This document shows positions 31,661 through 36,482 of a stretch of 64,000 bases of DNA, piece after piece. Source of the stretch: Enorma massiliensis phI. Lineage in GTDB: Bacteria > Actinomycetota > Coriobacteriia > Coriobacteriales > Coriobacteriaceae. Position 1 is the first letter of the stretch. Each line of letters starts with the position of its first letter. Below the pieces are notes generated by a model. That model did not search any database. It was not told the DNA's origin and was given only the letters and a program-made list of their open reading frames with translations. A program made the position numbers and the translations under genes. The stretch spans positions 146,715 through 210,714 of the forward strand of contig NZ_HE978575.1 in assembly GCF_000311845.1 (NCBI RefSeq). The letters run 5' to 3'.

Positions 31661-32944
31661 ATGCTCGACATCAAATTCGTACGCGAGAACCCCGACGCGG
31701 TGGATGCCGCGATGGCGAATCGCCAGACCTCGTGGGACCGTGAGCATTTCTTCGCGCTCGACGAGGAGCGTCGTTCCGTTATCGCCGAGGTCGAGCAGCT
31801 GCAGGCCACGCGCAACGCCGAGTCCAAAAAGATCGGCGAGCTCATGCGCGAGGGCAAGCGCGACGAGGCAGAGGCGGCCAAAGAGGCTGTGCGCCGCGTG
31901 AACGAGCGGATCGAAGGCCTTGCCAACCGTCGCAGCGCACTCGATTCCGAAGTGGCGGATTTCATGGCGCACCTGCCCAACATTCCCTGCCCCGCTACTC
32001 CCGTGGGTAAGGATGAGAGCGAGAACCCCGAGCGTCGCCGCTGGGGCACCCCGCGCGACTTCGCCGCAGAGGGCTTCGAGGCCAAGCCGCACTGGGATCT
32101 GGGTACCGATCTGGGCATCCTTGATTTCGATCGTGGCTCGAAGCTGTCGGGCGCGCGCTTCACGGTGCTCGCGGGCGCAGGCGCTCGCCTGGATCGCGCA
32201 CTCCAGAACTTCTTCCTGAATACGCACCTCGAGCGCGGGTTCAAGGAGTTCATTCCGCCCGTCATCGTGAACCGCGAGATTATGTACGGCACGGGCCAGC
32301 TGCCCAAGTTCGAGGACGACGCCTATCACACGGGCGAGGACCAGTTCCTCATTCCCACGGCCGAGGTCGCGCTCACCAACCTGCATGCCGGCGAGGTGCT
32401 CGACGCAAAAGAGCTGCCTTTGCGCTACACCGCGGGCACCCCGTGCTTCCGTGAGGAGGCTGGCAGCGCCGGCCGCGATACGCGCGGCATCATTCGCCAG
32501 CACCAGTTCACCAAGGTGGAGATGGTCAAGTTTGCGACGCCCGAGCAGTCTGACGACGAGCTCGAGAGCATGACCGCCGAGGCGGAGTACATCTTGCAGC
32601 AGCTGGGGCTCCCGTACCGTGTGATCAGCCTTTGCACGGGCGACCTGGGCTTCTCCGCTCGCCAAACCTACGATATCGAGGTTTGGCTGCCGAGCTACAA
32701 CAGCTACAAGGAGATTTCGTCGTGCTCCAACTGCGGCGACTTCCAGGCTCGTCGCGCGAACATCAAGTATCGCGATCCCGAGAACTTCAAGGGCACGCGC
32801 TTCGTGCATACGCTGAACGGCTCCGGCCTGCCCACGGGTCGTACGATGGCGGCCATCATGGAAAACTACCAGAATGCCGATGGCTCCATCACGGTGCCCG
32901 AGGTGCTGCGTCCGTATATGGGTGGCATGGAGGTCATCCGCTAG
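31661..32944 (+). CDS. serS: Seryl-tRNA synthetase
   Basis: A 427-residue class II synthetase that charges tRNA-Ser (and tRNA-Sec where present). The N-terminal coiled-coil arm (about residues 30-105) is followed by the catalytic domain with motif 2 ([20 protein letters not shown]) and motif 3 ([19 protein letters not shown]). ACCGGAGGGATC precedes the ATG. No T-box is recognisable in the leader. A GGCCCGC/GCGGGCC hairpin follows the stop. It is monocistronic. Confidence 0.99.
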
Positions 32945-33030: not shown

Positions 33031-33304
33031 GCATGCTAAAGAATTCGCTGGTACATGGTTTACCGGTTCTTGTATGGGCGGCTCGCTCATATGGGTGGCG
33101 CGCTCGCGCGGGGTCGGGCCCAAGTTGAAGTAGGCCGTCGCGGCTAAGATGGGGACGCTCAATGCGCCCTGGTCGAGGCTCTGTTTTGAGCCGTTGCGGT
33201 TGATGGGGCGCTCGCTCTGCGCTCGGGGAGAGACGACGCGAACAACCCGCTTCTTTGCTCGATAGGCGAGTATAATCGCGCCAACGATGTCGAGAGGAGC
33301 CAAT

Positions 33305-34261
33305 ATGGTGGTCGATGCGGGCGATAAGGCGGCCGAAGCGGAGGGCGTGGGCGCCCGGTCCGAGGCCTTGGAGCATGGTGATGGCCCACGTGCCGACTAT
33401 GGTCAACGTGCCGATGATGGTCAACGCGCCGAGCTCCCGGTTCTCGATGCGTACGGTCTCTCGTTCGGGTATGGTTCCGAGCGCGTTTGGGATCAGGTTG
33501 ATTTAGCCCTCTATGCTGGGGAGATTGGTTATCTGACCGGTCCGAACGGAGCGGGCAAGACGACGCTGCTCAAGTGCCTGGCGGGATGGATGTCCCCGCG
33601 CTCCGGCCAGATCGATGTGATGGGTGAGCGTTTTACGGGGCGGTCTCGCTCCATCCGCTGGCAAATTGCTTTCGTTGCCGACGTTCCCGCGTTTTATGAG
33701 GACCTGACGGCGCGAGAGCACATCGACTTCGTACTGCGGGCAAACCGTGCGGAACGTGAGGTGGTGGATAGGGCGGAGCGCATGCTGGAAGCGTTCGGCA
33801 TTGCAGAGTTCTGCAATGCCTATCCGTCTGCGTTTTCGCGCGGCATGCGGCAGAAGCTCGCGCTGGTCATCGCACTCATGATGAAGCCGAAGCTCGTGCT
33901 CATGGATGAGCCAACAGGGCCGCTCGACCCCGATGCACGGGTGCTTTTGGGGAAGCTGGTGCAAGAGGCGGCTCGCGACGGGGCGGCCGTGCTCTTGAGC
34001 TGCCATCACGAACTACCTGGAGTCGCTCCGGATGTGGTGTACGACCTGCGCGACGGCCGCCTGCGTGAAGTAGACGCGCATGACAGCGTGGTCGCGGGAG
34101 GAGCCTCAGGCCCGGGCGCGCACGATGCAGGCCCGGTCGAGCTCGGCGCGGGGCCGGACGGTTGCGACGGGGAGCCAGGCACGCGCGACGCGGGGCCGCG
34201 CCCCGGTGGAGTTGCGGGGCCTTGCGCGACTGCTGTGAGCGATGGGGGCTCTCATGCATGA
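33305..34261 (+). CDS. ABC transporter ATP-binding protein
   Basis: A 318-residue ATPase. Walker A is TGPNGAGKTTLLKCL; the signature loop is FSRGMRQK (in place of LSGGQ, as in many ABC-2 exporters); Walker B is KLVLMDEPTGPLDP; and the H-loop is in LLSCHHE. About 40 N-terminal residues precede the domain, and the last 60 are Gly/Ala/Asp-rich and disordered. GAGAGGAGCCAAT precedes the ATG. It overlaps the permease gene by 8 bases and powers it. The substrate is unknown. Confidence 0.9.
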   Translation: MVVDAGDKAAEAEGVGARSEALEHGDGPRADYGQRADDGQRAELPVLDAYGLSFGYGSERVWDQVDLALYAGEIGYLTGPNGAGKTTLLKCLAGWMSPRSGQIDVMGERFTGRSRSIRWQIAFVADVPAFYEDLTAREHIDFVLRANRAEREVVDRAERMLEAFGIAEFCNAYPSAFSRGMRQKLALVIALMMKPKLVLMDEPTGPLDPDARVLLGKLVQEAARDGAAVLLSCHHELPGVAPDVVYDLRDGRLREVDAHDSVVAGGASGPGAHDAGPVELGAGPDGCDGEPGTRDAGPRPGGVAGPCATAVSDGGSHA

Positions 34262-35798
34262 GATATCGCTGTTGGTGTGGCTCAAGGTTCGCCACATACG
34301 AAGTGCCTGCGCTTATTGGGGTTACATGTTTGGCGCGGACATCGAGTCCAAGGCCGATCTCATCGACAAGCTGTACTACCTATATCTCCTCGTGCTGCTT
34401 GGGGCGTGGACGGCGAGCGCCTGGATGTTTGCGGTGTCGAGTGTCGAGGAAGCCTATGTGTTTGGCGGGGCAATTCTGCTTGACATAACGGGAGCGTTGC
34501 TCGTGTTCGCTCTCCTGGCTGTGCTCGTTCGCTCGACGGTCTCGGCGCTCTGGCGTTCTCCGCTGCGCCTTATCAGTCCGGACTTATGGCTTCTGGTCCC
34601 TTATGTTCGCTCCGTCGGGCTCGTTGCCTTGATCGATGCGATGCCGCGGACACTCGCGTTCAGCTTTGCAACCTCGCTTGGTGTTTGGCTCTTGTGTAGC
34701 GGCTGTGCCGCAGCTGGAATGCAGCTCCATGCGCTTGCGCTATCAAGCACCGTGGCTTGCGCCGTTGCAGCGGCTCTTCTGATTGCGCGGGCCGCCGGCT
34801 ATGCCCGCTTAGCTTTCGCAAAGCGCGGGCCCAGGCGAGCGGCTTGGAGCATAGGCGTCCTTGCGTTCGAGATTTTGCTGTGTGCAGGTGCCGCGTTCGC
34901 TGTATCAGGCGCGGGATGGAGGGCTTCTCTCGACGCCTTCAGCGCTGCAAATGGTATGCACGCTGCAGCTCCTGGGGTGGCTGCGGGGGTCTTTGCGCTT
35001 GCGGTTGCTTGCAGCGCTGCTGCGCTTGTGTGCGGGGCAAATCGGGCCGACCTGGCCTGTGCGATCGAGGAGGGGGCAGCGGATGCCGCGCTTTTTGGCG
35101 TGCGACGCCTTGCGTTCCAGGCTCCCGACCAGTATCGCGAGCTGCGCCGTCGTTACCGTATCGCGCGTCGTCGCTTGCGTCCGACGTTTCGTCTTGCGAG
35201 TGGGCCCGCCGCGGCGATTACGCGCGCTGCGCTTTCGCATGCGCGGCAGTTCGAGAGCCTGCTGGGAATCGCTGCCATGGGCGTGCTTATCGTGCCGCTG
35301 AGTGCATGGACGCTTGCCCGCGCGTCCTCGCCTGTTGTGATTGTCGCTTGGGCATACGGCATGTTCATGGCGCTCGCCTCCCTATCTTTCTTGCGCGAGC
35401 TTTCTCTGGCGTTTCGTGAGGATATGCGAGTAACGCTCGTTCGCGATCAGATTCCTCTTTCGAACCTCGTGCTCGCCGTGCTCGACGCCTTGCCGGCGCT
35501 TGGGATACTCGAGGCGTGCTCATTCATTACCATGCTCTCGGTGAATGCATGTGCGCCGGGATCGTTCACGATGATGGAGGTTGCCATTTCCGTCCTCTTG
35601 GGTACGGGATTTTCGCTTGTTGCAGCGCTTGACGGTGTCGAAGTGACCTTCATACGCGTTGGCGTAACCTCCGTGGTTGGGCTCGTGTTGCTGCTCGCCG
35701 CTGCTGGCTTGCTGGCACTCTGGGCCCCCATAGCCGTGATATACGGCCTTGTTGTTGTGGATCTGGCATTCATCGCTCTGCTCGAAAACGGGAAATAG
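34254..35798 (+). CDS. ABC transporter permease-like membrane protein
   Basis: About 514 residues with roughly ten to twelve hydrophobic helices, arranged as two halves around a charged, cytoplasmic loop (YRELRRRYRIARRRLRPTFR at about residue 290). There is no recognisable family signature beyond general ABC-2-type exporter character. The ATG at 34254 follows GGGGG at normal spacing and overlaps the ATPase gene, so the two are translationally coupled. The N-terminal region MHEISLLVWLKVRHIR resembles the amphipathic start of such permeases. Confidence 0.8.
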   Translation: MHEISLLVWLKVRHIRSACAYWGYMFGADIESKADLIDKLYYLYLLVLLGAWTASAWMFAVSSVEEAYVFGGAILLDITGALLVFALLAVLVRSTVSALWRSPLRLISPDLWLLVPYVRSVGLVALIDAMPRTLAFSFATSLGVWLLCSGCAAAGMQLHALALSSTVACAVAAALLIARAAGYARLAFAKRGPRRAAWSIGVLAFEILLCAGAAFAVSGAGWRASLDAFSAANGMHAAAPGVAAGVFALAVACSAAALVCGANRADLACAIEEGAADAALFGVRRLAFQAPDQYRELRRRYRIARRRLRPTFRLASGPAAAITRAALSHARQFESLLGIAAMGVLIVPLSAWTLARASSPVVIVAWAYGMFMALASLSFLRELSLAFREDMRVTLVRDQIPLSNLVLAVLDALPALGILEACSFITMLSVNACAPGSFTMMEVAISVLLGTGFSLVAALDGVEVTFIRVGVTSVVGLVLLLAAAGLLALWAPIAVIYGLVVVDLAFIALLENGK

Positions 35799-36048
35799 CC
35801 TAGATGAGAGCTTCTCAGCCCATCGCCTCCATGAGCTTGGATATCGCTGTGGGGTTTTAGGTTGCTTGTCGTTGAGGGGCTGATTTGGCAGGAGGCCACG
35901 TACGAAAGGCAATAGATAGGTAGCTCATTCGAAGAGTTTTTCCTAGCCGGGCATGCCTAGTAAGAGACGACGCGATTCTTCGATTGCTCGAGGTGTGCCG
36001 GAGGCCCGTCTTCCTATAGCACACCGTGCGGACATCTCCCAAATATAC
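35799..36048. other. Intergenic stretch before the SOS-type boxes
   Basis: The 333 bases between the permease stop and the next start hold no gene. The only clear signals are the paired boxes at 36049-36075 and the promoter elements next to them. Confidence 0.5.
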
Positions 36049-36075
36049 GAACAAAAGTTCCACGAACAAATGTTC
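36049..36075 (+). promoter_or_regulatory. Two tandem SOS (LexA) boxes over a promoter
   Basis: GAACAAAAGTTC (36049-36060) and GAACAAATGTTC (36064-36075) each match the Gram-positive SOS box core GAAC-N4-GTTC, 15 bp apart. A -10 candidate TACAAT (36087-36092) follows, so the second box sits over the -35 region. They lie 57 bases upstream of the only plausible target start (36132). Confidence 0.8.
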
Positions 36076-36131
36076 TTATCAACCCTTACAATGGAGCCAG
36101 GGTAAGGAGCTGGAGAAAGGAGATGGACGCT

Positions 36132-36482
36132 ATGAGGCACGGGGGCAACGATGAGGTTCTGCTGTTCGAAAGCGAAGAAGATGAAGAAGCGCTGCGCATC
36201 TCCTGCAGGGCGACGAAGGAGGGCGGGCTGGTAATTCACCAGATGAGCGAGGGCGAGCTTACGGCGTGGTGCTTCGAGGAGTCTCCGCACGAAGTAGAGG
36301 TGACCGTTTCGCCGCGGGCCATTGCGCCCATGCTGGAGTATCTCCATGCAGAGGACGTGCAGCAACTTAGCAACTTGCTTGCAGCGGCATACAGCGGATA
36401 CGACGCATCTATACGCATCCGTGCCCTCATGCGGCGCTTAGGGGTGGCGTATGAGGTGTCCGAGCGCCCCATCATTCGATAG
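36132..36482 (+). CDS. Unknown small protein with SOS-type promoter
   Basis: A 116-residue acidic protein. The ATG at 36132 lies 9 bases after AAAGGAG; an in-frame ATG at 36123 is too close to that site. It has an acidic N-terminus (LLFESEEDEEALRI), a probable beta-rich middle (LVIHQMSEGELTAWCFEESP, EVEVTVSPRAIAP), and two helices at the C-terminus ending in a basic patch (IRIRALMRRLGVAYEV). There is no signal peptide or membrane segment. I do not recognise a family. The paired GAAC-N4-GTTC boxes upstream suggest DNA-damage induction. Confidence 0.8.
   Translation: MRHGGNDEVLLFESEEDEEALRISCRATKEGGLVIHQMSEGELTAWCFEESPHEVEVTVSPRAIAPMLEYLHAEDVQQLSNLLAAAYSGYDASIRIRALMRRLGVAYEVSERPIIR

Follow-up and report, generated by a model that had tools for sequence, protein, structure and literature searches.

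A putative LexA-repressed gene for a small acidic protein of an undescribed family in Enorma massiliensis and related Coriobacteriales

Small SOS-linked proteins of the DinI/RecX class work by attaching to RecA or to a LexA-type repressor. DdrR and GIL01 gp7 belong to the same class of RecA-LexA modulators (PMC11332147, PMC4551915). In Gram-positive bacteria the SOS division inhibitors are commonly encoded next to lexA and span the membrane once, and YneA and ChiZ have a LysM domain as well; these inhibitors share little homology with one another, and SulA is itself poorly conserved (PMC6851548). A search for the SOS regulon of Coriobacteriia turned up no paper in the literature collection used. 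The gene described here is found in a 64-kb stretch of DNA from Enorma massiliensis, referred to as the window. It encodes a 116-aa protein, and its features are listed in Table 1.

Table 1. Positions of the features discussed, numbered from the first nucleotide of the window.
Feature	Positions	Strand	Basis or remark
serS, syntenic anchor	31661-32944	+	SOS gene directly 3' of serS in many relatives
TGTC-CGCACGGTGTGC-TATAGG (TGTC-N12-TATAGG)	36013-36034	-	resembles PafBC/RecA-NDp promoter
Distal LexA (SOS) box, GAACAAAAGTTC	36049-36060	+	read directly and by scan; same spacing in L020, L023, L024, L077 and L079
Proximal LexA box, GAACAAATGTTC	36064-36075	+	covers inferred -35 region
Inferred -10 element, TACAAT	36087-36092	+	23 nt after the G of the proximal box; rests on conservation among relatives
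Shine-Dalgarno sequence, AAAGGAG	36116-36122	+	read directly; 9-nt spacing to ATG 36132
ORF of the 116-aa acidic SOS protein	36132-36482 (stop included)	+	ORF, homologues, model pLDDT 89.4, pI 4.8

The window has exactly two GAAC-N4-GTTC sites by pattern scan, and both are ahead of the 116-aa ORF, where an earlier note on this DNA had placed them. Each is a perfect match to the motif. The box starts are 15 bp apart and the pair is 57-83 bp upstream of the ATG at 36132. Shuffled windows have a mean of 0.84 sites, and 22% of shuffles have two anywhere; from the shuffled density we estimate that two boxes within 27 bp before a start codon would occur in less than 0.1% of windows. The -35 hexamer matching the TACAAT element would fall inside the proximal box, in agreement with the overlap with a promoter that the note had proposed. 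In most promoters of the Coriobacteriaceae homologues the last box is 22-24 nt ahead of a TA-NNN-T hexamer, and a second promoter class has a distance of 32-34 nt, approximately one helical turn more. The promoter is not listed by a generic sigma-70 scan, and its -35 is far from consensus. Starting from the in-frame ATG at 36123 instead would lengthen the protein to 119 aa, but this codon abuts the Shine-Dalgarno sequence. The length of 116 residues given in the note holds for the ATG at 36132 and is taken as correct because the Shine-Dalgarno sequence fits this start.

The recA and lexA genes of the organism are at C1:1166024 and C1:1175856. The box GAACAGCTGTTC is 36 bp before the recA start, and the upstream region of lexA has GAACGAGTGTTC and GAACAGTTGTTC together with the near-match GAACAAATGTTT. 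The ruv locus, whose ruvA and ruvB were confirmed by Pfam, has a further box, GAACAGATGTTC, ahead of it. The GAAC-N4-GTTC box is thus the LexA site of this genome, as carried by recA, lexA and the ruv locus. The note had called the two window sites LexA sites and had set the form of the recA and lexA boxes beforehand as a possible refutation; both genes carry GAAC-N4-GTTC. A predicted LexA operator over the promoter, of the form present at the organism's own lexA and recA, places the gene in the predicted LexA regulon, and the 116-aa ORF is almost certainly under LexA control as judged by comparison with relatives.

Genome-wide, there are 25 GAAC-N4-GTTC sites, several of them intragenic and GC-rich; the GC-rich sites are probably background, i.e., chance matches. 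Four AT-rich candidate sites (genome G000, contig C1) are near rpoB (position 666649), between an M18 peptidase gene and a DUF1848 gene (836902), ahead of a transaldolase ORF (937663) and ahead of a small unassigned ORF (475389). A GyrI-like reading of another SOS-boxed ORF, L098:3446-3808, was made by eye and was dropped when Pfam gave no confirmation.

The protein is encoded at 27 loci of named Collinsella and other Coriobacteriaceae with 40-56% identity. Of 67 Coriobacteriaceae genomes 62 have a homologue, and so do many from a second family of the order, by our assignment probably Atopobiaceae; none of the genomes listed for a third family, probably Eggerthellaceae, has one. The homologues usually sit directly 3' of serS. 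In three second-family genomes missed by the profile (G080, G217 and G249) there is a small ORF right after serS with a perfect box and a similar C-terminal half. Three Coriobacteriaceae genomes (G066, G160 and G281) have lexA, and show no box and no recognisable homologue within 1.4 kb after serS. In the window itself an ABC-transporter ATPase gene and a gene for a 518-aa partner (33287-35798) lie between serS and the SOS gene; homologues of these are found at this place in no relative examined. Genome G338 has a short 89-aa homologue (L081:1589-1858) whose 150-bp upstream region lacks an SOS box, and also a second match.

The box is conserved along with the gene. The 150 bp upstream of 30 Coriobacteriaceae genes and 40 second-family genes were compared with base shuffles. 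A perfect box is present in 27 of the 30 and 29 of the 40 regions, with shuffles giving 0 and 0.1, and a box with at most one mismatch in 30 of 30 and 38 of 40, with shuffles giving 1.0 and 1.9; these counts are not independent, as the genes are related. Most members have a single box. In the second family the box is kept while many of the coding sequences have less than 20% identity. It is extremely improbable that the gene lies outside SOS control and that its boxes match by chance. The frequency of two sites in shuffled windows and the many GC-rich genome-wide matches would allow for it, but in 68 of 70 orthologues the gene is preceded by a box with at most one mismatch, set at a fixed distance from the -10, and it is this conservation in orthologues that speaks most strongly against a chance match. 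The predicted regulation by the box is conserved and not fortuitous, and the gene is very probably a genuine, undescribed part of the DNA-damage response across two families.

The window protein is 13 kDa with a pI of 4.8 and a net charge of about -10 at pH 7, and most members are acidic; three divergent members (L077, L079 and L080) are near neutral or basic. AlphaFold2 modeling on 20 orthologues gives, with confidence, a compact alpha/beta fold (mean pLDDT 89.4, pTM 0.81) with the predicted order beta-beta-beta-alpha-beta-alpha-alpha-alpha-beta and no membrane-type or long hydrophobic helix. An alignment of 20 Coriobacteriaceae sequences has a nearly or wholly invariant turn, G41-x-L-T-x-W-C-F-E-E-S-P-H53, which loosens to [FY]-[GED]-x-x-x-H in more divergent members. 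The WCFEESPH patch within it is invariant in most Coriobacteriaceae. Gly41 is the only residue invariant across 46 divergent members. No conserved catalytic set is thus visible, which speaks against a conserved catalytic centre but leaves an enzyme role some probability. Compared with serS, the protein evolves about 14 times as fast (dN of 0.37 between the window and L020, compared with 0.026 for serS of the same pair). The dN/dS ratio of about 0.15 points to purifying selection and is a rough value, with dS near saturation. In Collinsella aerofaciens and close relatives (L031-L040 and L042) the protein is longer at the C-terminus and its last residues are GAA, which recalls a protease tag; most other Collinsella-type proteins end in arginine.

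Searches of Pfam, NCBIfam, PHROGs and PADLOC with the window protein and 46 divergent members gave isolated and inconsistent weak matches only. DUF3110 (0.036-0.064) was rejected as weak and isolated, MTase_II (5.8e-4) as confined to a single member, and no PADLOC match held across members. The SulA family (PF03846) has no match among the 46 members at E<=0.1, the DinI and RecX models have no sequence match, and LysM has none either. Sequence-profile searches of the PDB gave nothing noteworthy. Foldseek against BFVD and PDB gave no E value below 0.08, and VIA-align reached a Z of 5.1 at best, for the SAS-6 head, and of about 4 for Whirly and Pur-alpha, all within the stated noise of the tool; the SulA fold is not among the matches listed by either program. 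Phage, plasmid and viral-contig searches found no homologue. A likeness to a widespread uncharacterised small-protein family was also tried, with a consensus compared with plasmids, and was abandoned as it gave no match. The claim of the earlier note that the product is outside the familiar SOS proteins agrees with the absence of a match in the four family libraries and the PDB. The protein represents an undescribed family, encoded by a lineage-specific SOS gene of the ordinary kind.

The reading that we favor, with a probability of about 45%, is that of a single-gene LexA-repressed unit whose product is a non-catalytic, partner-binding modulator of DNA repair, recombination or replication. 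LexA dimers on both boxes would occlude the -35 region and so shut off the promoter. RecA filaments would trigger LexA cleavage and derepress the unit, upon which the 13-kDa acidic cytosolic protein would be made. The protein may then bind a partner by the patch around the G-x-LT-x-WCFEESPH turn, without catalysis, and the binding would modulate repair, recombination or replication. In this scheme we infer that damage induces the gene, that a partner is bound and what the binding achieves. Our leading guess is DinI/RecX-type tuning of RecA, or a role as LexA/RecA co-factor. A RecX gene adjoins recA in this genome, however, so that at least one other protein is available to tune RecA, and the lack of a significant structural or sequence relative also counts against the favored reading. 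A bolder proposal is that the proteins form a new family with a fold of its own, whose role in two families of Coriobacteriales is to tune the RecA/LexA circuit or the restart of replication, and whose sequence evolves fast while the operator and the place after serS do not change; taken as a whole this is unlikely.

The earlier note had also hinted at division inhibition. Divergent from lexA is a 154-aa ORF (L018:14208-14672 in G000:C1) for a protein that has a hydrophobic segment and, at its C-terminus, a LysM domain (Pfam LysM, 6.5e-11), and the lexA boxes are common to both genes. A pattern scan shows similar ORFs at lexA in several relatives. This YneA/ChiZ-like ORF is likely the SOS division inhibitor of the lineage. 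The hint is weakened by a gene of this type that shares the lexA boxes, and a division role for the 116-aa protein is less likely because such a gene adjoins lexA. The SOS gene is on contig C2 and lexA is on C1, so the two are not adjacent, and the membrane segment and LysM domain of the YneA/ChiZ/SosA type are likewise absent from the protein. A SulA-like inhibitor acting on FtsZ, beside the YneA/ChiZ-like protein or at another stage, is still consistent with the strong LexA control suggested by two boxes and with a small, soluble, fast-evolving and lineage-specific product, as known SOS inhibitors tend to be (PMC6851548). It is nonetheless unlikely, in that the LysM protein encoded at lexA is already built and placed like the Gram-positive inhibitors (PMC6851548) and no member matches Pfam SulA.

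Two other roles were considered. The net charge and low pI of the window protein, similar in most members, and the predicted control by DNA damage would suit an acidic DNA mimic that inhibits a nuclease, restriction enzyme or other DNA-binding protein and shields DNA during repair. This is quite unlikely in view of the near neutral or basic members, the lack of a PADLOC match holding across members and the absence of known mimics from the fold matches. An SOS-induced growth inhibitor or toxin is improbable. Double boxes imply tight repression, which would fit a harmful product, but most members have one box, the unit is without an antitoxin-like partner, and the gene is inherited vertically with serS and is not mobile, with no phage, plasmid or viral-contig homologue. 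A gene retained under putative LexA control across two families, apart from the division checkpoint, offers a concrete handle on what is particular to the damage response of this lineage. Collinsella and its relatives are common in the gut. The analysis also supplies a regulatory annotation for proteins with no credible match in the family libraries.

The minus-strand element upstream of the boxes (Table 1) may be related to a second damage response. The mycobacterial PafBC-type promoter is tTGTCRgtg-8N-TAnnnT, with a spacing equal to that of the window element (PMC5656591). The TGTC-N12-TA layout is present in more than half of the 30 Coriobacteriaceae upstream regions, where its end is 17-18 or 28-31 nt away from the last LexA box, on the upstream side. 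In many relatives a divergent Peptidase_M19 gene starts there; this gene is missing in the window. The element is probably a remnant or the divergent promoter of the absent M19 peptidase gene, and the loss of both the gene and the terminal T of the hexamer suggests a decaying promoter. Two neighbouring WYL-domain genes (G000:C1:94410-95547), the arrangement that PafBC would need, are a possible pafBC pair, and LexA and PafBC damage responses may coexist in this genome. The PafBC-like element is a lead and not a result.

The locus has properties in common with several described systems. With sosA of Staphylococcus, yneA of Bacillus, chiZ and divS it shares a small product, putative LexA repression and poor conservation outside the lineage. 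Those genes commonly encode a single membrane segment and lie beside lexA (PMC6851548), whereas the 116-aa protein is predicted to be soluble and is encoded next to serS, in a genome that also has a YneA/ChiZ-like gene at lexA. SulA is soluble, small and SOS-induced, as the protein is predicted to be, but there is no Pfam SulA match and no SulA fold among the listed structural matches. Although it has no match to the DinI or RecX models, the protein resembles DinI, RecX, DdrR and GIL01 gp7 in being small and apparently SOS-linked.
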